From positions 744,001 to 808,000 of the forward strand of contig NC_052507.1 of the NCBI RefSeq assembly GCF_014356525.2: a stretch of 64,000 nt of DNA, written 5' to 3'. The notes beneath the pieces are model-generated. The model worked only from the letters and a program-made list of their open reading frames with translations. It searched no databases and was not told where the DNA came from. Made by a program: the position numbers and the translations under genes. Of the stretch, positions 41,154 to 62,633 are shown in pieces (positions within the stretch are counted from its first letter, which is position 1; each line of letters starts with the position of its first letter). This stretch comes from Nilaparvata lugens (taxonomy: Eukaryota > Arthropoda > Insecta > Hemiptera > Delphacidae).

Positions 41154-41189
41154 ATTATAAACCCCTCTAGGCTCAAAATTCCGCCAATG

Positions 41190-42039
41190 TTTTTTTTTTT
41201 TATTTATTTTTTTATTATATAAAAATTAGCACCTAGTCTGAGACTAATAAGCTATTTATTTTATCCTAATTTTGCTAAATAGACTTTTTCAAACCTCATC
41301 CTATGATTCAGTTTGTCTAGTTTTTGACTACAATTACTTAGTCTAGTTTGTATCCTATAAAATAGTTTCATACAATCAAGTTAGTAGGCCAATAATAATT
41401 TGTTTGGTTTGAAGGGATGAACATTTCACTATCACTAACACCAGCTTCAAGCCATCAATTCACAACACAAATTTCACTTCACTAACTCATGCGGTTTTGT
41501 TCTTTTGAGCCTCCTGACCAGATTATCAACATCAAGCAGCTGGATTGCCTCTATATTGTCGTGCTGGTGGAGTCTCTCTTCATGCTTGGCCGCAAAGTGC
41601 TCAATAACTTTCATGACTGTCTCCAATTGAAGGTTGCGGTGAAGATCAGCATTTCTGATGTACCAAGGAGCATCAACAATATTTCTTAGTACCTTATTTT
41701 GAAATCGTTGGATAATTTGTACATTGGATGGTTTAGTACAGCCCCAAAGTTGAATGCCATAAGTCCATACTGGTTTCAGTAGCTGTTTATATAGTGGAAT
41801 TTTGTTGTATAAGGACAGCCTGGATCCTCTTCCCAGCAACCAATACATCTTTTTGAATTTAATTCCTAGTTCTTCCCTTTTCTTCTTGACGTGTGCTTTC
41901 CATTTGAGCTTGACATCTAGCGTCATACCCAAATATTTGGCAGTATTAGCAAGTGGAATGACTTTCTTATTTATATATACTGGAATATATTGAATTCTTT
42001 TATTAGTAAAATTCACATGTACAGACTTGGTATCAGTAG
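41190..42039 (-). mobile_element. 5'-truncated LINE, interrupted by Polinton B
   Basis: A poly-T run (41191-41203) is the poly-A tail read on the - strand. About 260 bp of 3' UTR follows, then 41474-42016 encodes the C-terminal (thumb and downstream) part of a Jockey-like reverse transcriptase: KYLGMTLDVKLKWKAHVKKK and PVWTYGIQLWG. The catalytic YADD region is missing. The reading frame stays open upstream of 42016 (TDTKSVH) up to the first base of element B, so B inserted at, or very close to, the LINE's 5' truncation point. No reverse transcriptase sequence is recognised on the far side of B. Confidence 0.75.
42034..42039 (+). other. 6-bp target site duplication of Polinton B, left
   Basis: CAGTAG immediately precedes the terminal inverted repeat. 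An identical CAGTAG follows the right end at 61474-61479. Six-bp duplications are the hallmark of Polinton integration. Confidence 0.9.
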
Positions 42040-42715
42040 AGGGATATTAAGACTTTGAAGCCACTTTTTTGCTCCAAAACCCCCTCCCCCCTCTCACCCC
42101 TCGTCCATCCCGCCTCCCCTTCCCCCGCCTGTAGGGTGGGGGGTGTTCTAAAAATAGATTACTCCTTCCCCTTGCCCAGTGGAGGTGAGGGGGTTGGAAA
42201 GAGAGGAAGATATCTTTCTCTCTCTCTCTCTCTTTCTAACCCCTTCCCCTTGCCCAGTGGAGGTGAGGGGGTTGAAAAGAGATATCTCTCTCTCTCTCCC
42301 CTTCCCCTTGCCCAGATGAGGGAAAAAAAAATTTCCCTTTTTGGAGGAAAAATTCCATCTCTATACTGACAGATTAAAGTGAATCCATATTTCTACATCT
42401 AATGCTATACTGTCAAATTAAAGTGAATGCTAGATGAGGGAGAAAAATCTCTTTGAGAGGGAAAAATTCCCTTGGTGACAGATTAAAGTGAATCCATATT
42501 TCTAATGCTATACTGTCAAATTAAAGTGAATGCATATTTCTACATCTAATGCTATACTGACAGATTGAAGTGAATCCATATTGCTATACTGACAGATTGA
42601 AGTGAATTGAGAAATTCTCCCTCTCTCCCAGTATAGATGAGGGGGAATAATTTCCCTTTGAGGGGGAAAAAATTCTCTACTGACAAATTAAAGTGAATCC
42701 ATATAACTCTATACT
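42040..42715 (+). repeat. Left terminal inverted repeat of Polinton B
   Basis: Pairs with about 60615-61473 in inverse orientation. The outer ~100 bp are nearly identical (GACTTTGAAGCCAC, CCCCTCCCCCCTCTC, GGGTGGGGGGTGTT). Then come CT-rich units built on CCCCTTGCCCAGTGGAGGTG, and an inner zone of repeats built on GACAGATTAAAGTGAATCC. The left arm has one fewer CCCCTTGCCCAGTGG unit than the right arm, which explains the length difference. The frame at 42055-42369 is a product of this repeat. Confidence 0.9.
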
Positions 42716-42847
42716 AGCGAATCCAGAGTGAGGTCAATGACTCTCTCTCTACATCTAATTGAATTGAGAAATTCTCTCTCTCTCACATCTAATGCTATAA
42801 ATCTCTACAATGATCTAAGTTCTTTTACATTTTTTATCTGCAATATT

Positions 42848-43279
42848 TTACAAGCATTTCCAAAGTTCATCGGAATTTTTAACAACAGATAATGCTGAAT
42901 CATTTGTACAATCATAATGTAGATGACCGCTGTCTAGAATATTGAGCAGTTCGAAAATCTCAGATAAAATCGAAAAGTGTACATTTTCTGTTTTTGTTAA
43001 CTGTAAATCAACATCTTGACATCCTGTTGAAAATTTAATATTCTTTGCAATTGAATCAAATTCATTAAATGAAATTGACATCAAGAGACGAGTTAATTTT
43101 TTGAATTTTGAAAAACCATAACACTGCATCTCGCAGATGTTTGACATGTCTCGAATGAGGGGAATAGAGAAAGATATATTTCTTTTTCTAAATTGATGAG
43201 ATGCACATGTTATAGGGGCTCGTGTCTGTATAAAAAAGATCACCCCACACGTCTTGTCAGGTCTAGCTCTAAGCAGCAA
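42848..43279 (-). CDS. Uncharacterised Polinton B protein (143 aa)
   Basis: The last structural-cluster frame before the left terminal repeat. No ATG opens it: the first codon after the TAG at 43280-43282 is TTG, and the first Met is MSNICEMQCYGFSK. It may be a 3' exon or a decayed gene. It is Cys- and Ser-containing with no membrane segment or known motif. It shares its frame with the 91-residue gene immediately upstream, but several stops separate them. Confidence 0.35.
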   Translation of the reverse strand: MLLRARPDKTCGVIFFIQTRAPITCASHQFRKRNISFSIPLIRDMSNICEMQCYGFSKFKKLTRLLMSISFNEFDSIAKNIKFSTGCQDVDLQLTKTENVHFSILSEIFELLNILDSGHLHYDCTNDSALSVVKNSDELWKCL

Positions 43280-43339
43280 CTAAACTAAAAATCGTGAATG
43301 GGATATTGGAATGAAAAATCATTTGAAGGCAGAAAACGT

Positions 43340-43615
43340 TTATTTACACATTTCGGCACAACTATTCATAATTTCATCTTCAATTCTAATTAGCTTATCT
43401 ATACACAAATTATGAGGACGATAATAGCATAGATAGTCTCTTATATCATTTAAATTAACCGTGCTTAGAAAAATGTCTTTCAATTGTTTCACCAAACTAT
43501 AATTTTCAGGAGTTGATTTCCTAATTGCACTTTCACACTCATCGTACCAATCAATACAGTTTTTTAACCTCACTTCCAATTCGTTGTCGGGAGCCAACCA
43601 CTGTCTCAGATCCAT
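43340..43615 (-). CDS. Uncharacterised small Polinton B protein (91 aa)
   Basis: ATG at 43615, 22 bp after the preceding BIR-like gene ends. Charged and probably helical (VRLKNCIDWYDECESAIRK, VKQLKDIFLSTVNLNDIRDY), Cys-containing, with no recognised family. Its position suggests co-expression with the capsid genes. Confidence 0.45.
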   Translation of the reverse strand: MDLRQWLAPDNELEVRLKNCIDWYDECESAIRKSTPENYSLVKQLKDIFLSTVNLNDIRDYLCYYRPHNLCIDKLIRIEDEIMNSCAEMCK

Positions 43616-43637
43616 GTTGTTGAGCGAATGAAGAAAA

Positions 43638-44549
43638 CTAAGTATAGGCAGGAACTATTATAGAGTAATTAAGTGGTCTTTCTTCATTAATTGATGAGAG
43701 ACAACATGTACGTGCTTTATGCAGTCTCAATGCATGCAGGCAATAAACACATTGTAGATCCTTTCCGTTGTAGAAGAATCCATAATGAGCAAAGTTTCTT
43801 TTCTGTGAATTCGTGTACATCGGAGCCATTTTCATACTTTGCATTCGATTGTTTTCGCACAAGAAATTATTTGTTTGATACATATTTTTAAACAACAAAG
43901 AATTATAATGTTGGGTAGAGAATAAAGCAGAGCGAGAATGTGGTCTATTTTTATGAATGTTACACGCAGCATAACACCATGAACTAGTGAAAAAGCTGAA
44001 AACAGGTTTTGGAAAATCCTCTGGTATACATTGAATGTTGCTATGCAATCTTCTTAAAAACTTTGCTTTCTCACTTCCTTTTGTGAAAATTCTCTCATAA
44101 CCTGCAAGGTAATCACATATTAATGACTCACTGTATTCTAATTCTCCATCTTCCCATTTTATTTTATGATAGTGACGTTCTGACCATGTTACATCGTTAT
44201 ACAATTTTGCACTCAATTCTGTCTTTGCAAATGGTGATTTGAAATGTAACACAATATAATTATTAAACTGATCAATTATGGCAAGTTATTTCACAATAAT
44301 TTGATTACAATCTTGTTTAAACCAGTGAAGATCAACCGTAGCAATTTTCGCACTCGCTTCCTTGTCCACTTCTTTATCTTTGGTGGGCTCCTCGAATCCT
44401 TCGTCTTTCTCTTCTCGTTTCTCCTCCTCCTCCACCTGCAGCGGCTTCGGTGTACTTGCTTCATAATAGAAACTATCAAGATCGCACTGAATACCAATAG
44501 AGCGAGTTTGTGGCTTGTCCAAAATATCAGAACACAAAGAATAGGACAT
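43638..44549 (-). pseudogene. BIR-like zinc-binding protein with an in-frame stop
   Basis: The frame opens at ATG 44549 and runs to 43638, interrupted once by TAA at 44286-44288; both sides are in the same phase and the downstream part has no ATG of its own. The upstream part has an acidic linker (EEEEKREEKDEGFEEP) and ends VDLHWFKQDCNQIIVK. The downstream ~205 residues end with a half-BIR pattern: FAHYGFFYNGKDLQCVYC, with the CxxC in place but no matching Glu-His...Cys pair afterwards. The same FA..G.F...LQCVYC pattern occurs as the second, degenerate BIR of the gene at 51663-52304. The role is unknown. Whether the stop is a mutation or is read through or spliced out cannot be told from the sequence. 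Confidence 0.55.
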
Positions 44550-44634
44550 GTTGTCTGTTCAAAGGTGAAACTGATAATGAACTAAATTGAGCAGAATGCA
44601 CACCTTATATAGCCGGCGTGCTCTATCAATAAAA

Positions 44635-45873
44635 TTACTGAACTTCTTTCACCATGCTCGTGAGAGGTGTGTACTCCATCACACGATCGCTAATTAAAAC
44701 GCAATACGTGGAAGTATTTGCAGGTACTGCACTATTAAATTCCATTTCAATACGAACATCTGTCGATGATTTCAAATGACTTGGTTGGTGTGAACAATCT
44801 ACAACAATCAGCGGTGTTGATTCACAAAACATTTTAAAGTCAATTTCTGTTCCGAGTTCGCTATTGATTGAATGATTATAATACGAGGGCGCGAAATCCA
44901 GGAACATGCGGTATAATACCTCCTTCTTACCTAGCAGATTTTCATATGGATAATACTCGCTGTTCAAATATACTTTAACATTGTAAATACCACAGCTATC
45001 GAAATTAGCTATTGATTTTTTAATTTTATTCTTACGATCAGTTTGAAATGCAATTATAACGTATTCTGGACTATCAAAACTCGATGTGGTACGAACTGCC
45101 CAAGAATGGTTAAGTGAAATTTGCAAATTTGGTAATTCACAAATTTCCCAATGCCGGAAACCTAATTTCAGTGGAGTGTCAGCATCAAGCAGTCTCAAAA
45201 ATTTCAGTCTTACATGATCTTCTAAAGTTATGTAGGGCATTCTCCATTGTAGTTTTGTAATTTTCACACTAACGCTTGTTCCACTTGTAGACTCAACACA
45301 ATTTAGATCTGTCAGTGACCTCAATAAGACGAGTTCCTGTTTAAAATTTAAAATTATTCTTTGAAAATCTTCAAAAAACGGCAGGATTAATTTCAGCGGT
45401 ACACAGAAAGTGAATTTATTATCTGTTAGCTCATATCCTGCTCTGTCAAAACCAGCCAAGTGATATGTGTTTTTATTGAGAGTATTCTTCACTAGAATAG
45501 CTTCAATTGTGGATGTTAATCCAATCAATCTTGATTTAGAAATTTGCTGACCTGCTAATTCATATCGTATTTCGTCAAAAAGGTTGCCGATTACGTTACT
45601 GCTTAATTTATAGTCTGCTGCAACTGGTGCATCGGTCGGCTCTGTTCCCGGTTTTGTACAGTTAACTGTTCCCTCAATCAATATGAATGATTTACGAGGT
45701 AAAGTATAGACATCTAAAGAATTTATGCCAATACATGCCTCGTCAGAGTTTTTTATTTCCTGTCCCGAATAAACTGTATGAGTGTGAAATTGGAATTTAG
45801 TAATATCATTATAAAACTGAAGGTCTGTCTCCACATCCAGAATTTCACTAATTGCTGCCGCTCCTCCTGACAT
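44635..45873 (-). CDS. MCP: Polinton major capsid protein
   Basis: ATG at 45873 (MSGGAAAISE) gives 412 residues. Supporting features are its size and place directly after the penton gene, and the stretch FFEDFQRIILNFKQELVLLR, a pattern I associate with capsid proteins of insect Polintons. It has beta-rich composition throughout and an acidic early segment (ISEILDVETDLQFYND). The family forms trimeric double-jelly-roll capsomers of icosahedral particles. There is no internal stop. The start overlaps by 26 bp the end of a small upstream frame, so the two are probably translated from one transcript. An alternative TTG start at 45885 is unlikely. Confidence 0.75.
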   Translation of the reverse strand: MSGGAAAISEILDVETDLQFYNDITKFQFHTHTVYSGQEIKNSDEACIGINSLDVYTLPRKSFILIEGTVNCTKPGTEPTDAPVAADYKLSSNVIGNLFDEIRYELAGQQISKSRLIGLTSTIEAILVKNTLNKNTYHLAGFDRAGYELTDNKFTFCVPLKLILPFFEDFQRIILNFKQELVLLRSLTDLNCVESTSGTSVSVKITKLQWRMPYITLEDHVRLKFLRLLDADTPLKLGFRHWEICELPNLQISLNHSWAVRTTSSFDSPEYVIIAFQTDRKNKIKKSIANFDSCGIYNVKVYLNSEYYPYENLLGKKEVLYRMFLDFAPSYYNHSINSELGTEIDFKMFCESTPLIVVDCSHQPSHLKSSTDVRIEMEFNSAVPANTSTYCVLISDRVMEYTPLTSMVKEVQ

Positions 45874-46033
45874 TTCGCCAATCAACTATAAAACCCAACT
45901 TTTCTAATATTCTCGCACTTTTAGCCGACAAAGCACGTTTGTTTTTAGGTGTTGACGCTATCGCATTCCTTTCTCTAATGACTTGATTGTGCATGCACGT
46001 ATTCGAATGTGGGTTGAAAATAAGATAACCCAT
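45848..46033 (-). CDS. Small conserved Polinton protein between penton and MCP (61 aa)
   Basis: ATG at 46033 overlaps the penton stop as TAATG, and the 3' end overlaps the MCP start by 26 bp. Residues about 30-50 read KNKRALSAKSARILEKLGFI, a short helical motif also recognisable at the C terminus of the acidic ORF of fragment A (38579-39037). The tight overlap on both sides supports a real, co-translated gene. The function is unknown; a minor virion or assembly role is a guess. Confidence 0.55.
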   Translation of the reverse strand: MGYLIFNPHSNTCMHNQVIRERNAIASTPKNKRALSAKSARILEKLGFIVDWRNVRRSGSN

Positions 46034-46719
46034 TACTTTTCACGTATGTGCAACCTAATTGTAATTGTATCCCCACGGAAATCAATAAACGATCCGTTCT
46101 GGTCCGTTACCTTTACATTAATAGTTTGAATTCGATGCGTATTCAAAGGTACATAAATAATCGGTGATGGTACTTCGTTTATTAAATAACCGCTAGGAAC
46201 CTTTGGTAAAAATTCGTAGATTATATGTTTTTGTTTTCCCTCAGAGTAACTGCCGCAAGCTAAATTACACTCAACTACAATACTGTCAACGCTTGTTATG
46301 TTAACCAAATGTTTGGAATAATGCCATTTATTTGCCTGCAAAACAACATTATCAAAACCAAGTATCTTAGCAATCGAATCAGAACGTGTTAAATCAATGG
46401 GTTTATCAGAATGGATTTCAATCTTCATAGTATTTGCGTTTGCACGTATAATAAGTTTATTCTTCTTCCCATCAATATTCAATTTATTCTTTAAAGATTT
46501 TATAATATCCTCAACTTCATATGCACCCGTATCCAACTCGATTAATCTATCACCATATTTGAAGCTGGAATTTGTTCCTTTGTTAATGTTTGCAATACTA
46601 TTGTAACTAGAAAAATTAATCAATCCAATTTCCCATTCACGATTTTTATCCAATTCTATAATTTCTTGTAAATGTTCATAGAGGTTACTCGTGTTAGATC
46701 GTAATGTAATAACTACCAC
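46033..46719 (-). CDS. Polinton penton (minor capsid) protein
   Basis: About 228 residues, beta-rich. The N-terminal part reads EWEIGLINFSSYNSIANI and the C-terminal part FIDFRGDTITIRLHIREK after VPSPIIYVPLNTHRIQTI, patterns I associate with the single-jelly-roll penton protein encoded next to the capsid gene in Polintons. Penton pentamers occupy the five-fold vertices. No ATG is present in frame: the first possible codon after an upstream TGA is near GTG 46719, so the start codon may have been lost (ATG to GTG) or initiation is non-standard. It lies 26 bp after the protease gene and overlaps the next frame. Confidence 0.65.
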   Translation of the reverse strand: MVVITLRSNTSNLYEHLQEIIELDKNREWEIGLINFSSYNSIANINKGTNSSFKYGDRLIELDTGAYEVEDIIKSLKNKLNIDGKKNKLIIRANANTMKIEIHSDKPIDLTRSDSIAKILGFDNVVLQANKWHYSKHLVNITSVDSIVVECNLACGSYSEGKQKHIIYEFLPKVPSGYLINEVPSPIIYVPLNTHRIQTINVKVTDQNGSFIDFRGDTITIRLHIREK

Positions 46720-46745
46720 CTTGTGTGTTCACCACAAACACTTAA

Positions 46746-47108
46746 TTACAACTGATTTGCAAGAAACAATAATGTAAGATGACTACAAAAATCGCTATTT
46801 AATGGTTGCATATGCTCCACATTATAAAATATATTTACTCCATTTTCTTTTTTCCAATATTTGTCCAATTCGTATGGAGGTTGTAAATTTCCAATTGGAT
46901 CAAAATACCAAACATTAGAGCCAACTTTCTTATATGCTACCCAATGTGTCCCATCCTCGCTTTCCCTTGCTAAATTCACAATGGCATTCTCGTTTTTTAG
47001 AATTTTTTTGGGTAATGTATCTAGCATATATATCCCTCTTAGCTGAATCTGTAATAATTTCGACCAATCAATCAAATCATAATTACTCAATTCTCCTTCA
47101 ATATTCAT
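46746..47108 (-). CDS. PRO: Adenovirus-type cysteine protease (maturation protease)
   Basis: 120 residues from ATG 47108, shorter than adenovirus proteases but in the range I would expect for Polinton enzymes. The catalytic set is visible: His in DGTHWVAY, Asp in VWYFDPIG, Gln in EHMQPLNS and Cys in DFCSHLTL. The family (C5, related to Ulp1) cleaves capsid and core precursor proteins after (M/I/L)xGx-G or (M/I/L)xGG-x; such sites are present in the neighbouring PLA2 protein. A Ser follows the catalytic Cys where Gly is common. No stop or frameshift is seen, so this gene looks intact. Confidence 0.85.
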   Translation of the reverse strand: MNIEGELSNYDLIDWSKLLQIQLRGIYMLDTLPKKILKNENAIVNLARESEDGTHWVAYKKVGSNVWYFDPIGNLQPPYELDKYWKKENGVNIFYNVEHMQPLNSDFCSHLTLLFLANQL

Positions 47109-47191
47109 ACCTTCTTCTTCTTTGTCTTCTTCCTACTCTTCTTTGTTGTTCTACGTTTCTTAACTCGAGGGAATAAACTCACTCCATATGA
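47105..47191 (-). CDS. Possible small basic peptide upstream of the protease
   Basis: A 28-codon open stretch between PLA2 and PRO, with no ATG, reads SLFPRVKKRRTTKKSRKKTK and ends KKKV, overlapping the PRO start. The Lys/Arg density recalls small DNA-condensing core peptides of adenoviruses, but this is only a compositional analogy. It could instead be the coincidental translation of a purine-rich segment. Confidence 0.25.
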   Translation of the reverse strand, partial: SYGVSLFPRVKKRRTTKKSRKKTKKKKV

Positions 47192-47230
47192 TTATGGGGG
47201 TAGGGGTGGAACTCTCCCCCCACTAGTTAT

Positions 47231-47785
47231 TTAAGGAAAAGGCTTCAAAAAATACCCTTTTCCTGCAATATGCTTTTTCAACTGAGCTATAGCTTTGCGT
47301 CTAATATCGTTACTATAACTTCTCCTCTCATTCTTCTTCTTCTTCTTCTTTCTCAAAGACCCACCAAACCCCGCTTTAGCTTTCATGACGTTTGTAACAA
47401 GATAGCTAAGTGCTTTCTCGGCAAGGGGTGTTTGAGGATTTTTGAAAATGTCCCATGCAGCGTTTGCTAGAGCTCTGTCAGCTACTGCTCGAGTTTTATT
47501 ATCGCTATTTTGAGTATAGGCTATATCATGTATCTTGCAAGCTCTATCTAATGAATTTATACCTTGATCACCCCTCTTTAACCTTTCATTAACCTTTGTG
47601 CCCGGTCCGCAATTCTCGTATCCTGGAATATGATATTCTTCTCCCAGGTTATCAATTACCTTATTTAAAATAGTTGATGTCACATTACCTGCCAAACCTG
47701 ACACACCTTTAAAAACTCTTGCCGCTGAACTCAAGATTCCTTTACCCCGTTTCCTCGAACTCTGCTTTTTTCTCCTACATACCAT
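47231..47785 (-). CDS. Phospholipase A2-like (parvovirus VP1-type) virion protein
   Basis: ATG at 47785, 184 residues. It starts with a basic segment (CRRKKQSSRKRGKG). The PLA2 core follows, with calcium loop NCGPGT and catalytic helix DRACKIHDIAY (His-Asp pair intact). An Ala-rich helix (TNVMKAKAGFGGS), a Lys run and the C terminus HIAGKGYFLKPFP complete it. IAGK followed by G matches the adenovirus-type protease site (M/I/L)xGx-G, so processing by the adjacent PRO is likely. In parvoviruses this domain acts on endosomal membranes during entry. Its placement in the structural cluster supports a virion role. The frame is intact. Confidence 0.85.
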   Translation of the reverse strand: MVCRRKKQSSRKRGKGILSSAARVFKGVSGLAGNVTSTILNKVIDNLGEEYHIPGYENCGPGTKVNERLKRGDQGINSLDRACKIHDIAYTQNSDNKTRAVADRALANAAWDIFKNPQTPLAEKALSYLVTNVMKAKAGFGGSLRKKKKKKNERRSYSNDIRRKAIAQLKKHIAGKGYFLKPFP

Positions 47786-48085
47786 TTTTCATCACCTTTC
47801 AACTCAATGGTTGAACATTAACTGAGGTTAATTAATCAATACATCAACTTGAATTGAATTGAATTGGTTTAATTTTCAATCGAGTTGGAAATGGATTCAC
47901 ACGCTATTGCTATGTGCTTATAACATTGCTTGAATGATAAGAATATTATTTCAAATCTGAAAGGTGAATGCGATTTGAAAAGGGGGGAAATGATGCTGGC
48001 ATTGCATGCCCACCCACATCTGTAGGAACACGTGCTAATGTAGGAGGGAGTGAGCGAGAAGCCAGCACCACTTGCCTGTACGGCT

Positions 48086-48086
<1 letters not shown>

Positions 48087-48153
<67 letters not shown>
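48087..48153. repeat. (GT)n microsatellite
   Basis: About 67 bp of uninterrupted GT between the PLA2 gene and the + strand promoter. It gives rise to a spurious His-Thr frame on the - strand (47869-48186). Confidence 0.95.
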
Positions 48154-48155
<2 letters not shown>

Positions 48156-48187
48156 CGGAAAAGACTACTGAGCATGCTCGCAACAAA

Positions 48188-48890: not shown

Positions 48891-48963
48891 ATCATACTAC
48901 AGATCAAGATCTCTACATCAGATTATCATCGAATTGTCATCATCATCGAATTCTCTGCATAAA
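48891..48963 (+). other. Predicted 5' leader exon 2 (untranslated)
   Basis: Acceptor TTATTTGTTTCAG (AG at 48889-48890) and donor GTGAGT at 48964 define a 73-nt exon without ATG. The next good acceptor, TTGTTTTTCAG at 52341-52351, lies 4 bp before the polymerase ATG, giving a 3.4 kb intron that holds the satellite array, the - strand promoter and the BIR gene. Confidence 0.5.
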
Positions 48964-48969
48964 GTGAGT

Positions 48970-50110
48970 AATATCAGTTATTGAAATAACATTGTTGCAT
49001 GATCGAGTACTTTAAACAATAATTTCTAATCAGTTCAAATAATATTCCCTTTGCATTCTAATCAGTTCAAGGAAATATTGCTAACATTGTTGCATAATCG
49101 ATTACTTTAAACAATAATTTCTAAGCAGTTCAAATAATATTCCCTTTACATTCTAATCGCTTCAAGGAAATATTGCTAACATTGTTGCATAATCGATTAC
49201 TTTAAACAATAATTTCTAATCAGTTCAAATAATATTCCCTTTGCATTCTAATCAGTTCAAGGAAATATTGCTAACATTGTTGCATAATCGATTACTTTAA
49301 ACAATGTTTTTTCATAATACCATTTCTAATCACTTCAAATAATATTGGTAACATTTATGCATGATCGATTACTTTAAACAATAATATCTCATAATACCAT
49401 TTCTAATCAGTTCAAGGAAATATTGCTAACATTGTTACATGATTGATTAGTTTAAACAATAATTTCTAAGCAGTTCAAATAATATTTCCTTTGCATTCTA
49501 ATCATTTCAAATAATATTTCCTTAGCATCAATTTCTATTCGGTTCAAATAATATTTCCTTTGCATTCCAAGCAGTTCAAATAATATTGGTAACATTTATG
49601 CATGATCGAATACTTTGAACAATAATATCTCATAATACCATTTCTAATCAGTTCAAGGAAATATTGCTAACATTGTTACATGATCGATTAGTTTAAACAA
49701 TAATTTCTAAGCAGTTCAAATAATATTTCCTTTGCATTCTAATCATTTCAAATAATATTTCCTTAGCATCAATTTCTATTCGGTTCAAATAATATTTCCT
49801 TTGCATTCCAAGCAGTTCAAATAATATTGGTAACATTTATGCATGACCGAATACTTTAAACAATAATTTCTAATCAGTTCAAATAATATTGGTAACATTT
49901 ATGCATGATTGATTAATTTAAACAATAATTTCTAATCAGTTCAAACAATATTTCCTTTATATTCTAATCACTTCAAATAATATTGGTAACATTTATGCAT
50001 GATCGATTACTTTAAACAATAATATCTCATAATACCATTTCTAAGCAGTTCAAATAATATTTACTTGCATTCTAATCAGTTCAAATAATATTCATATCAA
50101 ATAATATTCG
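48970..50110. repeat. ~115-bp satellite array in the centre of Polinton B
   Basis: About nine to ten irregular units built on TTTCTAATCAGTTCAAATAA, AACATTGTTGCATAATCGAT and TACTTTAAACAATAATTTC, with shorter sub-units missing in some copies. The array is entirely non-coding and lies inside predicted introns of both strands. Confidence 0.85.
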
Positions 50111-50624
50111 TATCAAATAATCAAAGACTCGTATGTGCACAGATTTTTTTTTTTAACAATCAATCACAGAAAAAATCTGTGCATACACAAGTTAATAATA
50201 TTTGTTGAAACTAACCTTTGTTTGTGAGCAGATTGACTGCTCCTCCTCATCCCCGCTAACCTCAGGCTCGTCAAACACCAACCTCCTCTTCCCCTGCTTC
50301 TGCTTGATGTTGTTGCTCAGCGTTGTCAGCACCGCACGTCGCGGTGCCCAGGTAGTCAGTGTAGATTGAGGGAGAGGACTGTCTGGAATCACGATCTCCT
50401 CACCCCTCTCTCATTGTACGAAGATTCCCTGTCTCTTCAGGGGTGAGGCTGAGGAGGAGGCGGGGGAGGCAGCGGAGGCGGCAGCTGTGGCAGCAGAGGT
50501 GGTAGTCGAGCTGCGAGCTTTCTGCTGCTGCCAATAGTTGAGCACGTGCTGCGGCGGGCTATCCGGCAGGATGTAAGATGGAGAAGATGTTGATTGTGAA
50601 GTCATTGTGGAGGTGGTTCAGATG

Positions 50625-51632: not shown

Positions 51633-51662
51633 CCTTCTACAATATACTGCATGCATGCGATT

Positions 51663-52304
51663 TTACTTCATCTTTATGATACGGTATATCCGGAACATCC
51701 AAGCCCCGCTCTTCTCTCTCACACTCTTCATATAAACAAAACGGTAAATGTATTCCTTTTCAAATGGATTTTCGATAATATATTTGCAATAGACACATTG
51801 CAGATAGAATGGATTTTTATGTAAGAAATAACCATTTCTCGCAAAATACTCTGCTTTATTGGATAATGATTTACAAAAGTCACAATGTAGATGATGATGC
51901 TTTTCAAAATACTCTCCTTGAACGGATGAATCTTCTACACAATTAAAAGTTGAATATCTTTCTTCATATTTTCGTAGAATATTATTATCGAAATTCTCCT
52001 CTTCAATTGTTATATTATCTTTCCTACTACAGTTCGGGCTGTACCTTGCATGTTCTATTGCTGGTATGTCACTTTCTTCCCATTTTCCCAAACAAATTGA
52101 ACAAAATACACATCGCACAATGTCTGGTGCAGATGAGAATATAAATCCCTCTTTCGCCATGTTTTCCGCGGACAAATGCGGAGAAGATTTCAACCATCTT
52201 TTATCAAAAGATAATAATCTTAATCTTTCATACAACATTATGTGATCTTGAGATATCATTTTCACACACCCTTCTTCTAGCAATGACAATTCACAACTAA
52301 ACAT
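51663..52304 (-). CDS. BIR-domain (inhibitor-of-apoptosis-like) protein
   Basis: 213 residues from ATG 52304. The first BIR domain (residues ~25-95) is complete in its zinc ligands: Cys65 and Cys68 (RCVFC), His85 (IEHARYSP) and Cys92, with the usual GF and W residues (EGFIFSSAPDIVRC, GKWEESDIP). A second region (residues ~135-180) keeps only the FA..GYF...LQCVYC half. No RING finger is present. BIR proteins of baculoviruses and insects bind caspases or pro-apoptotic peptides; an anti-death role here is inferred from the family. It is divergently placed from the polymerase (51 bp between ATGs) and lies within the polymerase leader intron. The frame is intact. Confidence 0.85.
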   Translation of the reverse strand: MFSCELSLLEEGCVKMISQDHIMLYERLRLLSFDKRWLKSSPHLSAENMAKEGFIFSSAPDIVRCVFCSICLGKWEESDIPAIEHARYSPNCSRKDNITIEEENFDNNILRKYEERYSTFNCVEDSSVQGEYFEKHHHLHCDFCKSLSNKAEYFARNGYFLHKNPFYLQCVYCKYIIENPFEKEYIYRFVYMKSVREKSGAWMFRIYRIIKMK

Positions 52305-52355
52305 GCTGTTGTACTCTATCTCATCCTGATCGTTATTCTTTTGTTTTTCAGAATC

Positions 52356-55300
52356 ATGCCGAGGGAACGCAGACTACGTGGCGTGAATTCCGCAGCAGTC
52401 CGCCATCGCATCACCCTCGATGACGAGGCTGAGGATATCGACATCACCAACGTGCTTGAGAGGTCGAAACGTCGAGTTTTCGATATAATTAGGGAACATG
52501 CGGCACGCCATGATGGGAATGTTAAGTGGTTTATAGTATTAAATGTTTTGCTGTATAAATTAGTGGTGATGGATGACAAGCAGGTTGGTGAGACTGTCTC
52601 ATCTCTAATAAATCTACATAGTTACTCCAACATAGCGCTAAACGTGCTTGAGAACTATGAAGATTTTAATGAGCATTTTTTCTTGGCTGTGAAAAAAATC
52701 CTCTCATCTTTCGAAAATTTCGTAAGACATGGGAGTGGATGGGTGCTAAAGAAAATTGAATCACTGGATGTGAACGTGATTAAATTTAATCCTATATACA
52801 CATCCAGTTTCATTCAAACACCCCAGTTTTTGAAAAACAAAAATTGTATTATAAATGTCAAAAATCTCTCTGACGAAAAATGCTTTTTATGGTCAGTGCT
52901 TGCGTATTTCCATCAGAAGCCAAGGAACTTGCGCTTGACTGTAAAGTATTTGAGCAAGTTTGCTCACACACTTAATACGCGAGGTGTAAATTTCCCGGTG
53001 ACGACACGCGATATTAAGAAATTTGAAATACTCAATCCGGACATTGCAATTCACGTCATCGCGTACGAGAACAAAAAGTTTTTCCCCTTCCGTACAAGCA
53101 TTTTCCGCACTCGTAAACACCAAATTAATCTTTTAATGCTAAAAGGCGATGCAGGAAAAACTCATTTCTGTTTAGTAAATACCGCGAACGGGAAAAACGG
53201 GCTATCGCGTCTTCTCTCCCACCTTTCAAAATGCCACGGTCAAGTACACATTTGCAATTTTTGTTTTCACCGGTTCACATCGAACAAAACTGAGAATTGT
53301 GATGGTAATGCAAATTTGATGAAACATGTGGAACTTTGTTCCAAGTTTGAATCTCAGCATGTTTCATATCCTAAACGCGGAGAGACAATTAAATTCAAGA
53401 AACTAGGCGCAACGTTGAAGAAAAAGTACACCATTTACGCGGATTTAGAAACTTATGTTCTTAATATCACAGATGACGATGATTCCAATTCTGATGAAAT
53501 TACTCATAGTTACACAAAGAAAACGGCGCGTCATATTCCCTGTGGCTATTGTTTCGTTGTTATCAATATGAATGGGGAAATTGCCTACGGACCTGTACTC
53601 CATAGATCGAGTAGTTTAGACGAAAAAATCATGGAGAAAATTCTTCAGGAAATTACAGATCTCGGCGACATTTTGTATGAGGATATGAAACGAGAAATTC
53701 CGATGCAAGCTTTATCCAAAAGTCAAGAGCGCGAATTTCAAAATTCAGTAAACTGCGGGCTTTGTGCTGAACCATTTTTAGACAGCGATATTAAATGTCG
53801 TCACCACGCGCATGAAACCAGTAATTACTTGTGTGCGGCACATGTTTCTTGTAATTTAACAGCTCGTACTCCAGAGTACATTTCGTGTTTTTTTCATAAT
53901 TTCTCCAGTTTTGATTCGCATTTTATTCTGAAATCGCTCGGTAAATGTAAAAAAGAAATTTCCTGCATCGCAAATACGTCAGAGAGATTTTTGACACTTT
54001 CAGTAGGCAAAATTAAATTTTTAGATTCCTACAAGTTTATGTCTGAATCCTTGGAAGTATTGGTGCGTAATTTGGTAGAAAGTACAGACATGGAAAAGAA
54101 GTTCGAACGATTATTTTCGGTGTTTCATGATCCACCTCGCGAACACAGACAGCTCTTGTTGAAAAAAGGAGTATATCCTTACTCGTACATGAGCTGTCCC
54201 GAAAAATTCGAGGAAACATCGCTTCCTCCCATCGAATGTTTTCATAATGATTTAACTGATACACCTCTGTCTCGCGAAGAATATGAGCATGCGCAAAGAG
54301 TGTTCTCAACATTCAAGCTGAAAAATCTGGGTGAATATCACGATTTTTATTTATGTTTGGACGTAATGCTATTAGTGGTAGTTTTTGAATCCATAGACCT
54401 CGTCTATGCTTTTTAGCTCATACGGCCTCGATGTGACCCATTTTGTTTCTCTCGCGCACTTCACCTGGAATTGCATGCTGAAACACACTAAAGTTGAACT
54501 AGAATTGATTACTCATCCTGACATGCATCTTATGTTTGAGGCAGGGATGAGGGGTGGGGTGTCATTTATCGGTAAACGTTATTGTGAAGCAAATAACAAA
54601 CATCTACCCGAAACATACGATCCTTCAAAACCGTCTAATTATCTGCTTTATATCGATGCAAACAGTTTATACTCGGAAGCTATGAGCCAAAGCTTACCTG
54701 TTGGAAATTTCAAATTCCTCTCAGAGGAAGAAATTTCCAGCCTTGATTTCGCGAATTTGGACAGCAATTCAGAAACCGGATATATAATAGAATGTGATCT
54801 CAAGTACCCTCAAGAGTTACATGATAAGCACGCCAGCTTCCCACTCGCACCTCTCCACCAAACGCCGCCGCGCGAATTGCTGTCGAACTACCAAACAAAT
54901 GAGAATGGTCAAACTGGAACCAAAAAGCTCATGAACACACTTTTCGACCGTGAAAAGTACATTGTTCACTATGTCAATTTGAAGCTCTACCTTCAGCTCG
55001 GTTTGAAATTATTGAAAGTGCATCGCGTCATTAGCTTTTCCCAATCTCCCTGGCTGAAAAGCTACATCGACTTCAATATCCGGAATAGGCAGAACGCGAA
55101 AAATAAATTTGAAATATCCTTCTTTAAGGCCTGTTGTAACTTGATATTTGGAAAAACGATACAATCAGTGCGTAAGCATATCAATGTTAAAATTATCACG
55201 GATGAAAAACGGTTAGATAAGTACATTTCAAATCCACTATGTAAATGCTGGCAAATAATTAGTACGAACGTGATCGCGTTTTTCTCTTGCAAGTTGGAAC

Positions 55301-55923
55301 TTAAAATGAACAAGCCTGTCTATTCCGGCGTTTCCGTACTGGAGTTGAGTAAATTCCATATGTACGATTTTTTCTATTGCAAATTACAAAAAATTATACC
55401 ATGGGATCGTATAGAACTCTGTATGACTGATACCGACAGTTTTCTTCTAAACCTAAAAGTCGAAGATGTGTATCAGTTGATTAGAGAAAATTTGAGCCTT
55501 TTCGATACTTCTAACTATCCACCTTCCCACCCTTGCTTTTCCATAGAGAGAAATAAAGTTGTAGGAAAGTTCAAGGATGAGACTGCCTCAAAACCTGTCC
55601 ATAGATTTCTTGGACTTCGATCCAAACTTTACTCATTTTTAGTATGTAAAGAGAATGAAGAACCTGTAAATAAATGTATAGCAAAGGGTGTACAGAGCGG
55701 AGTGAAATGTAGAAAACTTAATTTTAATTTATATAAGAAATCATTGTTTGAACGTAGTGAACACATTGAAAAATTTAATATGTTAAGATCCTATAATCAC
55801 ACCATGTATCAGGTTGAATGTGCAAAAATCTGTTTGAGTCCTTATGATGATAAGAGGTACATTGCTGAGAATGGTGTTGATACTCTCCCATTTGGACATT
55901 ATAGAGTGCCCACAACACTCTAA
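52356..55923 (+). pseudogene. POLB: Protein-primed family B DNA polymerase (Polinton), frameshifted
   Basis: ATG at 52356, directly after a strong splice acceptor (TTGTTTTTCAG). The N-terminal ~350 residues carry a conserved Polinton region with a Cys/His-rich cluster (HICNFCFHRF). 3'-5' exonuclease motifs are TIYADLETY (Asp363, Glu365), HNFSSFDSHFI (~residue 520) and YHDFYLCLDVMLL (~662). The first frame stops at 54414-54416. The second frame, overlapping by 11 bp in +1 phase, carries YGLDVTHF, then the polymerase motifs DANSLYSEAM (A), KACCNLIFGK (B) and MTDTDSF (C). The phase change falls in a run of five T near 54408-54412, consistent with a one-base insertion or a sequencing error. The enzyme would replicate the element using a terminal protein primer. 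Confidence 0.9.
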
Positions 55924-55986
55924 CTGATTGCTCAGTATGTCCCGTGACAATCATCCAACACCACTGATTTGACTGTTGTAAATATC

Positions 55987-56940
55987 ATGAATATTATTAG
56001 ATCTAAGCTAGCTTTAGAGCTTCATAGCGTGCCGCGTGTGAACTATCCCACTCGCAAATATGAGTTGAAAAGTGAAAAAGACTTGCTTCAAGCCGATCTC
56101 ATTGAGATGACGAGTTTATCGCGTTTTAATAAGGGTTATAAATATATCTTAGCTGTTATTAATTGTTTTTCAAAATTTGCATATTGTGTACCATTAAAAG
56201 ACAAGGCAAGCCAATCTGTATTTAACGCTCTCGAACCAATTATTTCTAAAAATAAGGGAGTTAAGCTGTTCCAAACAGATCAGGGAACAGAATTCTTTAA
56301 TTCAAAAGTTAAAGCGTTATTAGATAGATATAGTATTAAACATTATCATGTTTTTACCGATAAGAAAGCCTCCATAGTTGAAAGGTTTAATAGAACACTT
56401 AAAGCAAAAATTTATAGATATTTAACTGAACATGGAACCAAAAACTGGATATCGCAACTAGACAGTTTGGTTCGTGATTATAATGCAACAATGCATTCAT
56501 CCATTAGAATGAAACCTAAAGATGTGGGGAAAAAAGATCGTAATCATGTTTTAATGTCTTTGAATTCTGCATTCAATAGACGATATAAATTGAAAAATTC
56601 AAAACCGAAATTTAAGCTAGGAGATGTTGTACGAATCTCAAAGAAAAGGGTTCTTTTTGATAAATCTTATAACATAAACTGGAGCGCAGAGTATTTTGTA
56701 ATTCATTCTATATTTCCTTCTCAACCTGTAACGTATAGCTTGCGAGATCTAAACGGAGAAGTAATTAGTGGTAGGTTTTATGCAGAAGAAATTAAAAAAA
56801 CCCAATTAAACGAATCTGAGAGACAAGTGTATTTGATTGAAAAAATATTAAAATGTGATAAAAAAGGATTGCTAGTGAAATGGATTGGGTTTTCAACGCC
56901 TAGTTATATTAGTAAAGATCAACTATTAGATGAAAAATAA
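55987..56940 (+). CDS. INT: Polinton integrase (retroviral type, with chromodomain-like tail)
   Basis: ATG at 55987 (MNIIRSKLAL) gives 317 residues. The DDE core is complete: Asp37 in LQADLIEM, Asp98 in LFQTDQGTEF and Glu132 in SIVERFNRTLK, with 33 residues between the last two. An SH3-like C-terminal domain (FKLGDVVRIS) is followed by a chromodomain-like end (VYLIEKILKCDKKGLLVKWI, GFSTPSYI). The enzyme joins the element ends to a staggered target, consistent with the 6-bp CAGTAG duplication. The frame is intact. It lies 63 bp after the polymerase. Confidence 0.92.
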   Translation: MNIIRSKLALELHSVPRVNYPTRKYELKSEKDLLQADLIEMTSLSRFNKGYKYILAVINCFSKFAYCVPLKDKASQSVFNALEPIISKNKGVKLFQTDQGTEFFNSKVKALLDRYSIKHYHVFTDKKASIVERFNRTLKAKIYRYLTEHGTKNWISQLDSLVRDYNATMHSSIRMKPKDVGKKDRNHVLMSLNSAFNRRYKLKNSKPKFKLGDVVRISKKRVLFDKSYNINWSAEYFVIHSIFPSQPVTYSLRDLNGEVISGRFYAEEIKKTQLNESERQVYLIEKILKCDKKGLLVKWIGFSTPSYISKDQLLDEK

Positions 56941-57302
56941 TCTTTTGTAATCTATTGTAAATATCATGTACATTTATTGTAAATATCATGTACATTTATT
57001 GTAAATAATCTATTGTAAATACATTCCATTCAGTGTAAATATCATGATGTACATTCGTTGAAAATATAATAGAAGTATTATTATCAAACATTGCTTTTCA
57101 TTTCAATCTGAAGTTTCGTAATTTGCTAAGGCTCAAGCAACAGACGCATTCTCGTGGAGAGGGTGCGGGAAAGAGAGGGCCAGTTGAAGTGAGAAACTTC
57201 TATCAGTGGGAGCGAGCGTCTGTCTAGCCATGTGGTGACTCACCTTCCTCTCTGATAACTTATCAGTTCCTTATCAGATCACATGCTGTACACGTGACTA
57301 AC
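56941..57302. other. Spacer between integrase and ATPase with short repeats
   Basis: The first ~120 bp repeat TAAATATCATGTACATT-type units, forming small palindromes around ATGTACAT. The rest is purine-rich (GGAGAGGGTGCGGGAAAGAG). No gene is seen. Confidence 0.5.
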
Positions 57303-57972
57303 ATGATTCCGATAGTAAATTTCGACAATGTTATAAGAGAGAAAGAAATGGTGTAAAAATGGTAAGCTGTTACCACATAATGCAAGGATCCTTATAATAG
57401 GCTCTTCAGGCTGTGGCAAGACCAATTTGCTATTTAATTTAATTTTTTCAAAGAATGGGTTGAGATTTAAAACTATATACTTGCACACGAAGAGCGAGTA
57501 TCAAGATAAGTACTTGTTTTTGAGAAAAGTCTTTTCAAAAATGAAGGGTATTGAATTTTATATAAACAGCAATTTGGAATCTATTCCTCACCCGAACAAA
57601 ATTCAACAATTTTCTCTTGTCATATTCGACGACTTCCAACTTAATCACGTACCTCAAATAAGAGAATATTTTACCATGGGACGACATCGTAATATTGACA
57701 CTGCATATTTAATTCAGAGTTATGGAGCTACACAGAAACATTTCACTAGGGACAATGCGAATATGATTATAATCTTCAAGGTAGATTTATTGAGTCTGAA
57801 ATTAATTCACAGAGATCATGTTGGAGGAGATATTTCTTATAAAGATTTTGTTAAACTTTGTCATAAAGTTTGGAATCGTAAACCTCATAATTTTGTAACT
57901 ATTATGAGCAAGTGTGGAATTAATAGCGGCAAATACCGAGATTCGCTCGATACGTTTCTTACCGTTCAGTAG
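57303..57972 (+). pseudogene. Packaging ATPase (FtsK/HerA type), N-terminal frameshift
   Basis: Walker A is GSSGCGKTN (57400-57426) and Walker B VIFDDF (about 57619-57636); GRHRNIDTAYLIQS follows as in A32-like packaging ATPases. The ATPase frame has no ATG before the Walker A motif: it is open back to 57337. A neighbouring frame starts at ATG 57303 (MIPIVNFDNVIREKEMV) and ends in TAA at 57354-57356, so a one-base shift near 57350 separates start and core. The protein would pump DNA into capsids. The C terminus, IMSKCGINSGKYRDSL, is also recognisable in fragment C. It ends 21 bp before the next gene. Confidence 0.85.
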
Positions 57973-57993
57973 AGATTAATTCTTTGTGCAGTC

Positions 57994-58902
57994 ATGTTGT
58001 CATACAGCAGCAGAAAACTGAATAGAAAGAACGTTGGTTTAATCGAAAAGATTAAGAAATTGAGAAAAGTAATTAGAGAGAAGCATAAAAGCTTAGTCAA
58101 TTTTGAAAAACGATCGGAGGAATACAATAGGAAAACGCTCTTGCCATTGATAGAGCCCATAATTGAACTGGGAAAAAACAAATTCTCACACTCTGGTGTA
58201 AAACCAAAAAAGAAAGAAGTAAAAGAGGAGAGTACGGAAATTGATGATAATGAGGAGGGGGATGAACAGAGTTATGAGAGTTCAACAGACAATTTTTTAA
58301 GTTCAACTAAATTTGAAAACAGTTTACTTGGTTCTAGCAGAAACGATGATGTGCTGTCACAATATCTAAAAACGTTTCATGCAGAAAAATTGAATAATTC
58401 AATCAGTTATGGAATTTCATATAATTCTAAAGATGAGGTGTATTATATTGGAAATCAGCAAGTAATATTCGATAATGGTTATATAGATATTAATAATGAA
58501 AGATTTCGTTTAACACATGGTCTACTTGAGTTATTATTCAGTGCGAGACCAAACTCAAATCTTTATAATCAGAGAGATCTGGATAAGTATAAAAAAATCT
58601 TAACACTTACAGGCATACATTTAGATTGAAGAGGCTATGTTAAATGAAATCAGGGAATTAAATCGCAAATGATTCAAAAGTTATTTCCCAGTAAAAAAAT
58701 TAGTAAAAAGAAGGGGTGGGGTTTATTGAAATTTGCAAAAAATAATTCTCATGATAGAATTTATCAATACTTTGATAATTTTGACGAATTAGTGGAAAGA
58801 TTAAATTTACTCTATTCCTCAAAAGCTACTGGCAACACCGGGCATGATATTGAGATCGCGTCTATAATTGAAGAGCTAAAAGAAGCAAAATTAATTGTTT
58901 AG
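57994..58902 (+). pseudogene. DUF8207-type Polinton protein with two nonsense codons
   Basis: ATG at 57994. The N terminus is basic and helical (LIEKIKKLRKVIREKHKSL), followed by an acidic linker (DDNEEGDEQSYESS) and the conserved domain: NNSISYGISYNSKDEVYYIG, FRLTHGLLELLF and NLYNQRDLDKYKKIL. Two in-frame TGA codons lie at 58627-58629 and 58645-58647. The phase is kept beyond them to 58902 (Ile-Gln-Lys-Leu-Phe-Pro-Ser and EIASIIEELKEAKLIV). The homologous gene of fragment C has Arg at both stop positions, which fits CGA to TGA transitions. I recall this family as DUF8207, common in insect genomes; its function is unknown. A virion or DNA-associated role is a guess. Confidence 0.75.
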
Positions 58903-58909
58903 TGTTACG

Positions 58910-59941
58910 ATGACTCTACATCGATTCGGTCGAATTGATACGCCTAGTGCTAGCGGAGCTGCTGCTAATCTTACGTGTGATATTGACTCGATAACACAGA
59001 AGATAATCGAATCGATAAATCAACAAGGAATCAGCGAAGCTGTGAAATTTTATTTAGATTCGCAAATAACCAAACTCGTTTCGGAAAATACAAAGAATAT
59101 TGGAGTGAGCATAATTGAAAGAGAACATATTCTAAGTACATTACAAAATTTCAGTGCTAATATCGATAAAGCTATTGCAGAGAGAACTCTAAATTTAGAA
59201 TCCGCTCTAGGAGAAGTGAAAACTTTAACAGACAGCTTTTCATCTCAGTTGCTCAGTATTAACACCGATCAAGTTGATAAAGCTTATTTAGATGAGAAAT
59301 TAAAAGCCGTATCAGATAAAATTAAGAATTTGGAGGTGCTGGACAGAAACTATCTCAATACTAAATTAAAACAACTTAGTACAGAAATTTTTACTAAAGT
59401 AAATGAAACACAGCCATCGTCAATTGATAAGCAATATTTAGAATCTGCTTTGCAGAAATTGATTAGTTCTTCATTAACAAAGGAAGAGTTTGAAAAACGA
59501 TTATCTGAAATGGCAAGTGCAATAAAAGCTAATATTATGGAGGGTATTGAACAGTTCATTACAAAAGATGCTATCGCTATTCTAATTAAGCAAATTGCAG
59601 AAAAGTACGCAACTAAAAATGATATAGGAGATTTTATTGAGAAAAACGAGATGGGAGTCGCTGTGAAAAGCGTTCGTGATGAAATAGCTGAGGCAATTAA
59701 AAATTCGGAAGAGGGTACTGTCATGAGACTGCAATGTTCGGCTCCATTCATTGACTATCTAAATTTATTCATCCACAGAGTGGCCCTGGACATCGTATCC
59801 AAATACACCCAGGTAAGTTTTCACATGAACTGGATTGAGGCCAAGGAACACAACCTTTCCGTAAATCAGGTTTTGCAAATTATTACAGAAAAAGTGGATT
59901 TAGTCAAATATAAAGACTTTATATTGGCTCCAAAAACATAA
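58910..59941 (+). CDS. Coiled-coil protein, possible fibre or minor virion protein
   Basis: ATG at 58910 (MTLHRFGR), 7 bp after the preceding gene, giving 343 residues. It has heptad-type segments for most of its length (IDKQYLESALQKLISS, KEEFEKRLSEMASAIKANI) and a globular C terminus (IDYLNLFIHRVALDIVSKY, then VNQVLQIITEKVDLVKY). The homologue in fragment C starts with the same RFGR motif. A trimeric fibre is conceivable because such proteins extend from penton vertices, but this is only a structural guess. The frame is intact and it is the last gene before the right terminal repeat. Confidence 0.65.
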   Translation: MTLHRFGRIDTPSASGAAANLTCDIDSITQKIIESINQQGISEAVKFYLDSQITKLVSENTKNIGVSIIEREHILSTLQNFSANIDKAIAERTLNLESALGEVKTLTDSFSSQLLSINTDQVDKAYLDEKLKAVSDKIKNLEVLDRNYLNTKLKQLSTEIFTKVNETQPSSIDKQYLESALQKLISSSLTKEEFEKRLSEMASAIKANIMEGIEQFITKDAIAILIKQIAEKYATKNDIGDFIEKNEMGVAVKSVRDEIAEAIKNSEEGTVMRLQCSAPFIDYLNLFIHRVALDIVSKYTQVSFHMNWIEAKEHNLSVNQVLQIITEKVDLVKYKDFILAPKT

Positions 59942-59984
59942 AATCTTGTAAACAGTTGTGTGAGAGAGAGTGAACTTTAACACA

Positions 59985-60500
59985 TGTTGTTTCAAATTTC
60001 AGTCTAGACATTTTTCACTATGATTGATTGTATAAACACTTGCGTGAGAGAGAGAGAGAAGTATTTAAACACCTGTAGTTTCAAATTTCACCCTAGACAT
60101 TTTTGACTATGATTGATTGCATAAATCTTGTAAAAGGTTGACATATTATTAGAGAGAGTGAAGTACAGACCTCCTGCTTCAAATTTCAGCCTAGACATTT
60201 TTTGACTATGATTGATTGCATAAACACTTGCGTGAGAGAGAGTGAACTTTAACACATGTTGTTTCAAATTTCAGTCTAGACATTTTTGACCATGATTGAT
60301 TGCATAAACACTTGTGTGAGAGAGAGTGAAGTATTTAAACACCTGCAGTTTCAAATTTCAGCCTAGGCATTTTTGACTATATCGGTTTTCTACATAAATC
60401 TTGTAAAAGGATGAGATATTATTAGAGAGAGAGTGAAGTAACTTTAACGGATAAAAACAGATGTCACAGATGATAAATCGATTTAGACATTTTTTCATGT
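59985..60500. repeat. ~90-bp tandem repeat before the right end of Polinton B
   Basis: Five imperfect units with TTTCAAATTTCAG, CTAGACATTTTTGACTATGA, TTGATTGCATAAA and GTGAGAGAGAGTGAA. TTTCAAATTTCA starts near 59990, 60081, 60177, 60260 and 60348. Non-coding. Confidence 0.85.
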
Positions 60501-60614
60501 AACGGAATGTAACGGTTTTCGATGCAGGAGTTATTCTAGAGGAACCTAGCAGAGAGCAGAGCGCACGTGTCATTTGTCTAGACGGGGGAGAGGGTGACGA
60601 GCGAGCGCACGTGC

Positions 60615-61473
60615 ATTAGATGTAGAAATATGGATTCACTTTAATTTGACAGTAGAGAATTTTTCCCTCTCAAAGAGATTTTTTCCCTCATCTAGCATTC
60701 ACCTCAATTTGTCAGTATAGCATTAGAAATATGGATTCACTTTTTCCCTCTCAAAGAGATTTTTTCCCTCATCTAGCATTCACTTTAATTTGTCAGTATA
60801 GCAATATGGATTCACTTCAATCTGTCAGTATAGCATTAGATGTAGAAATATGCATCCACTTTAATTTGACAGTATAGCATTAGAAATATGGATTCACTTT
60901 AATCTGTCACCAAGGGAATTTTTCCCTCTCAAAGAGATTTTTTTCCCTCATCTAGCATTCACTTTAATTTGACAGTATAGCATTAGATGTAGAAATATGG
61001 ATTCACTTTAATCTGTCAGTATAGAGATGGAATTTTTCCTCCAAAAAGGGAAATTTTTTTTCCCTCATCTGGGCAAGGGGAAGGGGAGAGAGAGAGAGAT
61101 ATCTCTTTTCAACCCCCTCACCTCCACTGGGCAAGGGGAAGGGGTTAGAAAGAGAGAGAGAGAAAGATATCTTCCTCTCTTTTCAACCCCCTCACCACCA
61201 CTGGGCAAGGGGAAGGGGAGAGAGAGAGAGATATCTCTTTTCAACCCCCTCACCTCCACTGGGCAAGGGGAAGGGGTTAGAAAGAGAGAGAGAGAAAGAT
61301 ATCTTCCTCTCTTTTCAACCCCCTCACCACCACTGGGCAAGGGGAAGGGGAAATCTATTTTTAAAACACCCCCCACCCTATAGGCGGGGGGAAGGGGAGG
61401 CGGGATGGACGAGGGGGGAGAGGGGGGAGGGGGTTTTGGAGCAAAAAAGTGGCTTCAAAGTCTTAATATCCCT
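60615..61473 (-). repeat. Right terminal inverted repeat of Polinton B
   Basis: Inverse of the left repeat, with an additional CACCACTGGGCAAGGGGAAG-type unit (about 61195-61330 duplicates 61070-61195). The outermost 25 bp match the left end exactly. It is followed directly by CAGTAG. The frames at 61027-61383 and 61065-61376 are repeat translations. Confidence 0.9.
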
Positions 61474-61479
61474 CAGTAG
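61474..61479 (+). other. 6-bp target site duplication of Polinton B, right
   Basis: CAGTAG, identical to 42034-42039. Confidence 0.9.
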
Positions 61480-61489
61480 TGGTGTTTTG

Positions 61490-62604: not shown

Positions 62605-62633
62605 CTCTATTCTTGTCAAGTGTTAAACACATA

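Follow-up and report, generated by a model that had tools for sequence, protein, structure and literature searches.

A nested Polinton of the brown planthopper from a family whose copies seem to carry their own terminal tags

A 64,000-nucleotide stretch of the brown planthopper (Nilaparvata lugens) genome (NC_052507.1, positions 744,001 to 808,000; hereafter the window, whose coordinates are used throughout) contains a Polinton, designated element B, at 42035–61474, with its four last bases (TACT) displaced to 70205–70208, past the window end (C4:814205-814208). With a probability of roughly 85%, B is an element integrated in the germline from a Polinton family that is large and has recently expanded in the brown planthopper, and its termini are accounted for by the scheme proposed below. 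Sequence comparison suggests that each copy of this family has a short terminal tag of its own, which in most cases is shared by its two ends. Specifically, a 23-nt stretch between the end motif AGTAGA and the block CTTTTTTGCTC, referred to as the tag, was different in all 55 family ends that were kept for comparison, and the tag of B was found at exactly two sites in the 1.085-Gb assembly, which are the two ends of B itself. The exact subterminal pattern of the family occurs at 227 sites in this assembly, and the reversed-pattern control occurs at none.

The boundaries of B were established from the termini and target site duplications (TSDs) of sister copies and from the far junction of the locus, which was read in the sequence past the window end (L037, C4:808001-817900). 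The left terminus consists of AGTAGA and the tag GGGATATTAAGACTTTGAAGCCA (42035–42063, plus strand). The right copy of the tag and the last two terminal bases of B before a second element, C, are located at 61450–61474 (minus strand), and the remaining TACT is found past C. Alignment of the left end with the reverse-complemented right end, as proposed in the initial annotation, confirmed terminal inverted repeats (TIRs) that are 98–99% complementary in two gap-free blocks (42321–42607/60778–61064 and 42039–42126/61387–61474). The clearly alignable parts of the TIRs are 42035–42607 on the left and 60778–61474 on the right, and an extra repeat block makes the right TIR longer. Among 20 sister copies picked by internal similarity, the left ends of 17 read AGTAGA, 23 bases and CTTTTTTG, with the full CTTTTTTGCTC block in 15 of these, and no AGTAGA/CTTTTTTG terminus was found at the left ends of the other three. 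Right ends were recovered for five of eight projected sister copies and have the same terminus; the TSDs of these five are GATAGG, TGTATT, GCCGTT, AATGAA, and GCGACG/GTGACG. The family terminal hexamer is AGTAG[A/G/T], with AGTAG in 54 of the 55 kept ends and AGAAGA in one. Since the sister copies start with AGTAG[A/G/T] and have differing 6-bp TSDs outside it, AGTAG is part of the element. The hexamer is close to (AGT)2, which is reported as one of two end motifs in vertebrate Mavericks (PMC8097293). The TSD of B is GGTATC (42029–42034) on the left and GGTATA (70209–70214, past the window end) on the right, and the two copies are equal at 5 of 6 bases. Long TIRs, the AGTAGA end motif, and a 6-bp TSD, the canonical ends of Polintons/Mavericks, are thus all present in B. 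In 22 other two-ended copies, the TSDs agree at 6/6 bases in 18, 5/6 in three, and 2/6 in one, the last of which (L052/L053, 41 kb apart) is perhaps no pair. Site-specific insertion into NAGTAG was considered and dropped, as the TSDs differ between sister copies.

In the initial annotation, B ended at inverted termini AGGGATATTAAG with CAGTAG as its perfect 6-bp target duplication, the target being the 5′ edge of a truncated LINE (long interspersed nuclear element), and the base-exact boundaries gave a length of 19,434 bp. The letters themselves were confirmed by reading the sequence: AGGGATATTAAG is present at 42040 and 61473 in inverted orientation, with CAGTAG on both sides (42034–42039 and 61474–61479). 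As a delimitation of B, this interpretation is hardly tenable. AGTAG lies within the element in nearly all kept ends, with other TSDs outside, and the right side of B is explained to the base by the two ends of C, the TSD of C, the leftover TACT, and a LINE that continues. The two CAGTAG sites match by coincidence, since B and C both have AGTAG termini and that of C supplies the right-hand copy; CAGTAG was therefore dropped as the TSD of B, and the boundaries were moved to the AGTAG ends, with the final TACT beyond C. For annotation, the lesson is that Polintons share the AGTAG end, and two meeting elements can mimic a target duplication.

Element C is a second, shorter Polinton-like element (61475–70198) that is lodged in the right tip of B and runs past the window end, so that the window holds its left part (61475–64000, plus strand). 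It starts with AGTAGTGG at 61475, and its inverted repeats (61475–62505/70198–69175) are 86% identical over ~1 kb; a second match (89%) ends at 71794. The far junction reads CTACT, TCCCTC, TACT, and GGTATA in succession, and the TSD of C is TCCCTC, the left copy of which is at 61469–61474. C sits within the last ten bases of B and hence arrived after it, which reverses the earlier view of C as a pre-existing part of the target of B. An end-to-end fusion of B and C was also considered and dropped, as C lies within B and is flanked by a TSD of its own. Just past C there is a 100-N assembly gap (70570–70669) with a duplicated flank (~1.3 kb at 95% identity, 69100–72000), which is probably an assembly artefact from a scaffold join of overlapping contigs. 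Such a gap might suggest a chimeric B/C junction produced by the assembly instead of a nested insertion. We consider this very improbable: the left B/C junction is ~9 kb away from the gap, TCCCTC is present at both junctions, the severed tail of B is where nesting predicts it, and the far junction can be read twice, identically, once on each side of the gap.

Among the 227 subterminal sites, 100-odd were listed, all on scaffolds C1 to C9. Sixty fetched ends, 15 of the left ends above, and the window made 76 ends; removal of duplicated insertions, of two irregular ends, and of the second members of pairs left the 55 kept ends, which represent at most 54 elements (L027 and L096 are the two ends of one copy). 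For the comparison of ends within one copy, 22 pairs were selected by position: 16 came from the site list, five from projection, and one was found later. Over the 29 bases of the tag and hexamer, the two ends of a pair are identical in 11 cases and differ at 1–2 positions in eight, at four in one, and at 16 in two; the match is thus complete or nearly complete in 20 of the 22. On scaffold C6 (C6:61047325-61047974), a perfect TSD, ACCCTC, flanks two family termini separated by only ~650 bases, a miniature inverted-repeat transposable element (MITE)-like derivative; another pair on scaffold C5 is ~4.2 kb apart.

The variability is sharply localized. Among 16 left ends, the hexamer AGTAGA and the 11 bases that follow the tag have a per-site diversity of 0, as against ~0.5 for the tag and 0.69 for the host flanks; these ends were selected by their subterminal block, which favours the apparent invariance of that block. 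In the stretch homologous to 42715–47900, the mean difference among 16 copies is 2.55% (1.2–3.9%), as compared with 53% for the tags, and tag distance shows no correlation with gene distance (Mantel r 0.03, P 0.37; 16 copies). The tags are modular: positions 19–23 have 10 distinct words against a column-shuffle mean of 43 (lowest 36), and positions 8–12 also have 10, against a mean of 21 (lowest 17). Duplicated insertions keep their tag, as L015/L018, L086/L087, and L091/L092 have common flanks and a common tag. An internal donor copy of the tag was not found in B, where the best match was 16/23 and shuffles reached 17. A variable protein region able to read the tag was also not found, either in 42.7–47.9 kb of 16 copies or, apart from ragged alignment edges, in 55.9–60.1 kb of five copies and the window; this comparison left out 47.9–55.9 kb. 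The lack of a variable hot spot in the compared parts speaks against the idea that the element encodes a protein that reads the tag. Nothing of this sort was found in the literature searched on hypervariable ends of Polintons or transposons.

The assignment of B to the Polintons is also based on its genes. Those on the minus strand include the major capsid protein with a double jelly roll (44635–45885; PF21738, E 1.3e-86), which has 295 relatives and none in the viral contigs scanned, a phospholipase A2-like protein (47231–47788; PF08398, E 4.6e-12), and a BIR-domain, inhibitor of apoptosis (IAP)-like protein (51663–52373; PF00653, E 5.2e-20). The plus strand carries the protein-primed DNA polymerase B in two parts, followed by an RVE integrase (55948–56940; PF00665, E 2.1e-12) and an A32-like packaging ATPase (57337–57972; PF04665, E 7.4e-10). 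The first polymerase part (52287–54416) is 93% identical to residues 1–680 of P0124, a planthopper protein of 1141 residues, and the second (54397–55923), in another frame, is 96% identical to its residues 682–1139; the frames meet near 54400. Some of the 63 relatives of the polymerase are named DNA-directed DNA polymerase, and some have PF03175. In the assembled sequence the polymerase occupies two frames, and B therefore looks unable to replicate alone. The Polinton/Maverick hallmark genes found are thus capsid, integrase, and ATPase by Pfam and polymerase B by its relatives. The remaining open reading frames (ORFs) are one with a sub-threshold half-BIR match (43638–44285, minus strand; E 0.005, 17.7 bits, cut-off 22.9) and two on the plus strand without an assigned function, 57973–58629 and 58895–59941, the latter with no family match above chance level. 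In the gene-free middle of B, 48960–50130 is occupied by diverged direct repeats with poor alignment between copies, and a serine-rich reading frame at 50192–50617 (minus strand) is broken by one in-frame TGA.

Several points weigh against the reading of B as a Polinton with matched tags. The initial annotation counted all six core genes, of which capsid, integrase, ATPase, and, in split frames, polymerase stand; the other two identities are weakly supported. The ORF at 46033–46728 (minus strand) is a putative penton or minor capsid protein by its position; it has no identifying match in Pfam, PHROG, or PDB, and its fold model (mean pLDDT, the predicted local distance difference test score, of 34) is too poor. 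The ORF at 46746–47132 (minus strand) may be an adenain-like protease, and its match to PF00770 is below threshold (19.3 bits, cut-off 21.3). In the search with capsid and polymerase models suggested earlier, the capsid was recovered with high significance, and the polymerase pieces matched no Pfam model even at E 10, so that the polymerase call depends on named relatives and sequence motifs. The assembly duplication around the gap beside C implies that the frameshifts in B may be sequencing errors. Finally, two of the 22 two-ended copies (L058/L059 and L027/L096) have unlike ends despite perfect TSDs, which indicates that matching ends are not required for integration.

As the family suggests, we propose that the linear element would rely on its own proteins throughout: the protein-primed polymerase would start copying at the ends, the capsid proteins and ATPase would serve for packaging, and the RVE integrase would carry out insertion. 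The terminus would have three layers: the invariant AGTAG[A/G/T] as the integrase site, the 23-nt copy-specific tag, and the invariant CTTTTTTGCTC. The ends of a replicating molecule would usually be copied from each other and therefore match, and the tags would change through the exchange of short modules between co-replicating elements. As the simplest account, module exchange and end-to-end copying would yield shared modules, unique combinations, and matched ends; the two pairs with unlike ends would then be unfinished or recombinant. Exchange and copying alone do not explain the confinement to 23 bases, and selection for distinctness or local hypermutation, which would keep the tags diverse, must be added.

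As for what the tags are, one tentative answer is a combinatorial address, by which a replicating genome might pair or recognise its own ends or evade a host or parasite that reads sequence. The tags might instead have no function, a possibility to be taken seriously: they could be old terminal variants that recombination or gene conversion with older elements has reshuffled, within a spacer that nothing reads. The module alleles common to different copies, the two copies with unlike ends, and the lack of a link between tag and gene distance are in its favour, while a diversity ~twentyfold that of the genes, a sharp stop at both borders, and a constant length are against it, as a neutral spacer should not differ so much from neighbouring bases. 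An origin by terminal hypermutation, in which protein-primed initiation or end repair introduces errors into the first ~29 bases and the first end then serves as template for the second, seems unlikely. The variable island is where protein-primed copying would start and the two ends mostly match, but the first six bases hardly vary, and the variation is modular, with few alleles per block, rather than scattered, and is without insertions or deletions. In a protein-primed linear genome, few bases are expected to be as constrained as those at the ends, and in adenoviruses the origin is located there. At the very ends of B and its relatives there is a 23-nt island with label-like variability, while the rest of the element is ~97% alike. 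The tags make testable how the ends stay equal, how tags change, and whether anything reads them, and they could be used to trace parent and offspring insertions.

The BIR protein of B contains one full BIR and a partial second, and its closest PDB sequence matches are the BIR domains of NAIP and Drosophila IAP1. No RING was detected in it by Pfam, and it has no relative in the viral contigs scanned or in phage records; its fold model (mean pLDDT 39) is too poor to use. Three relatives of the protein end with CSIL, CSIM, and CSLL, a CaaX-type box. The matching tail to the last ~40 residues of the relatives, which include this box, is in another frame in B. Genome-wide, at least 150 places with the BIR gene, B included, were scored among 1834 candidates, and 118 are without a stop inside the match. 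At least 69 of the scored places are on scaffold C15 and at least 16 on scaffold C16, enrichments by scaffold length of 4.7-fold and 11.5-fold, respectively. Family copies were observed to be concentrated on these two scaffolds, which may be sex chromosomes. Five sister copies with a fetched stretch that extends to the gene have it in part or whole. Of four small stretches fetched to hold it, one did. By analogy with its family, the IAP-like protein may protect the infected cell from apoptosis, and the BIR gene, multiplied with the family, is a likely example of a captured anti-death gene.

The locus around B has been hit repeatedly, in agreement with the earlier description of a Polinton nested in a LINE with Polinton-like pieces on both sides. 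Polinton fragment A (39068–41190, minus strand; PF08398, E 7.1e-13) is interrupted by the LINE, whose 3′ part (41188–42034, minus strand) is in turn interrupted by B. The poly-T run at the 3′ end of the LINE adjoins fragment A at 41188, and the match of A to C (87% over 726 bases) stops at 41190. The host flanks joined across B and C form a single reverse-transcriptase-like frame that includes WLIKLNDTKSVHVNFTNKR, and the LINE endonuclease domain is located farther out past C (PF14529, E 5.3e-16), so the LINE is not truncated at the insertion site as had been supposed; the other LINE piece in the L037 stretch has no Pfam match. As read from these junctions, the order of insertion is A, the LINE, B, and C. 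The suggestion that the locus is the intron of a secreted EF-hand gene received no support from six-frame loop-pattern searches, in which the strict pattern gave none and the relaxed pattern gave a low-complexity acidic run only, though degenerate exons could escape both. By eye, the host part of the window contains a long repeated block with a CA microsatellite twice, at 7100–8400 and 10300–11400.

B is similar to Polintons/Mavericks in its gene set, long TIRs, 6-bp TSDs, and ends near (AGT)2 (PMC8097293). It differs from them in having a BIR gene and, in its family, a 23-nt terminal tag that differs between copies and is not described in the available parts of the literature compared. Adintoviruses have integrase, polymerase B, and capsid genes, and all three are present in B. 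A further likeness is a putatively anti-apoptotic gene, as anti-apoptotic homologues are reported in most species of the mammal-associated adintoviruses (PMC11071296). In contrast to these, B is in an insect host, its cargo is a BIR protein, and the copies read are integrated, with no free virus genome seen. This protein is like IAP/BIR proteins in its full BIR domain (PF00653) and partial second one, and unlike them in lacking a RING by Pfam and in the C-terminal CaaX box of the three relatives found. As in endogenous virophages (endogenous mavirus-like elements, EMALEs, and mavirus), the terminal repeats of the B family are variable between close relatives. In the virophages, a new TIR is reported always to be accompanied by a new primase/helicase version (PMC10945749), whereas in the B family the tags change while the examined genes, without a variable hot spot, stay ~97% identical.

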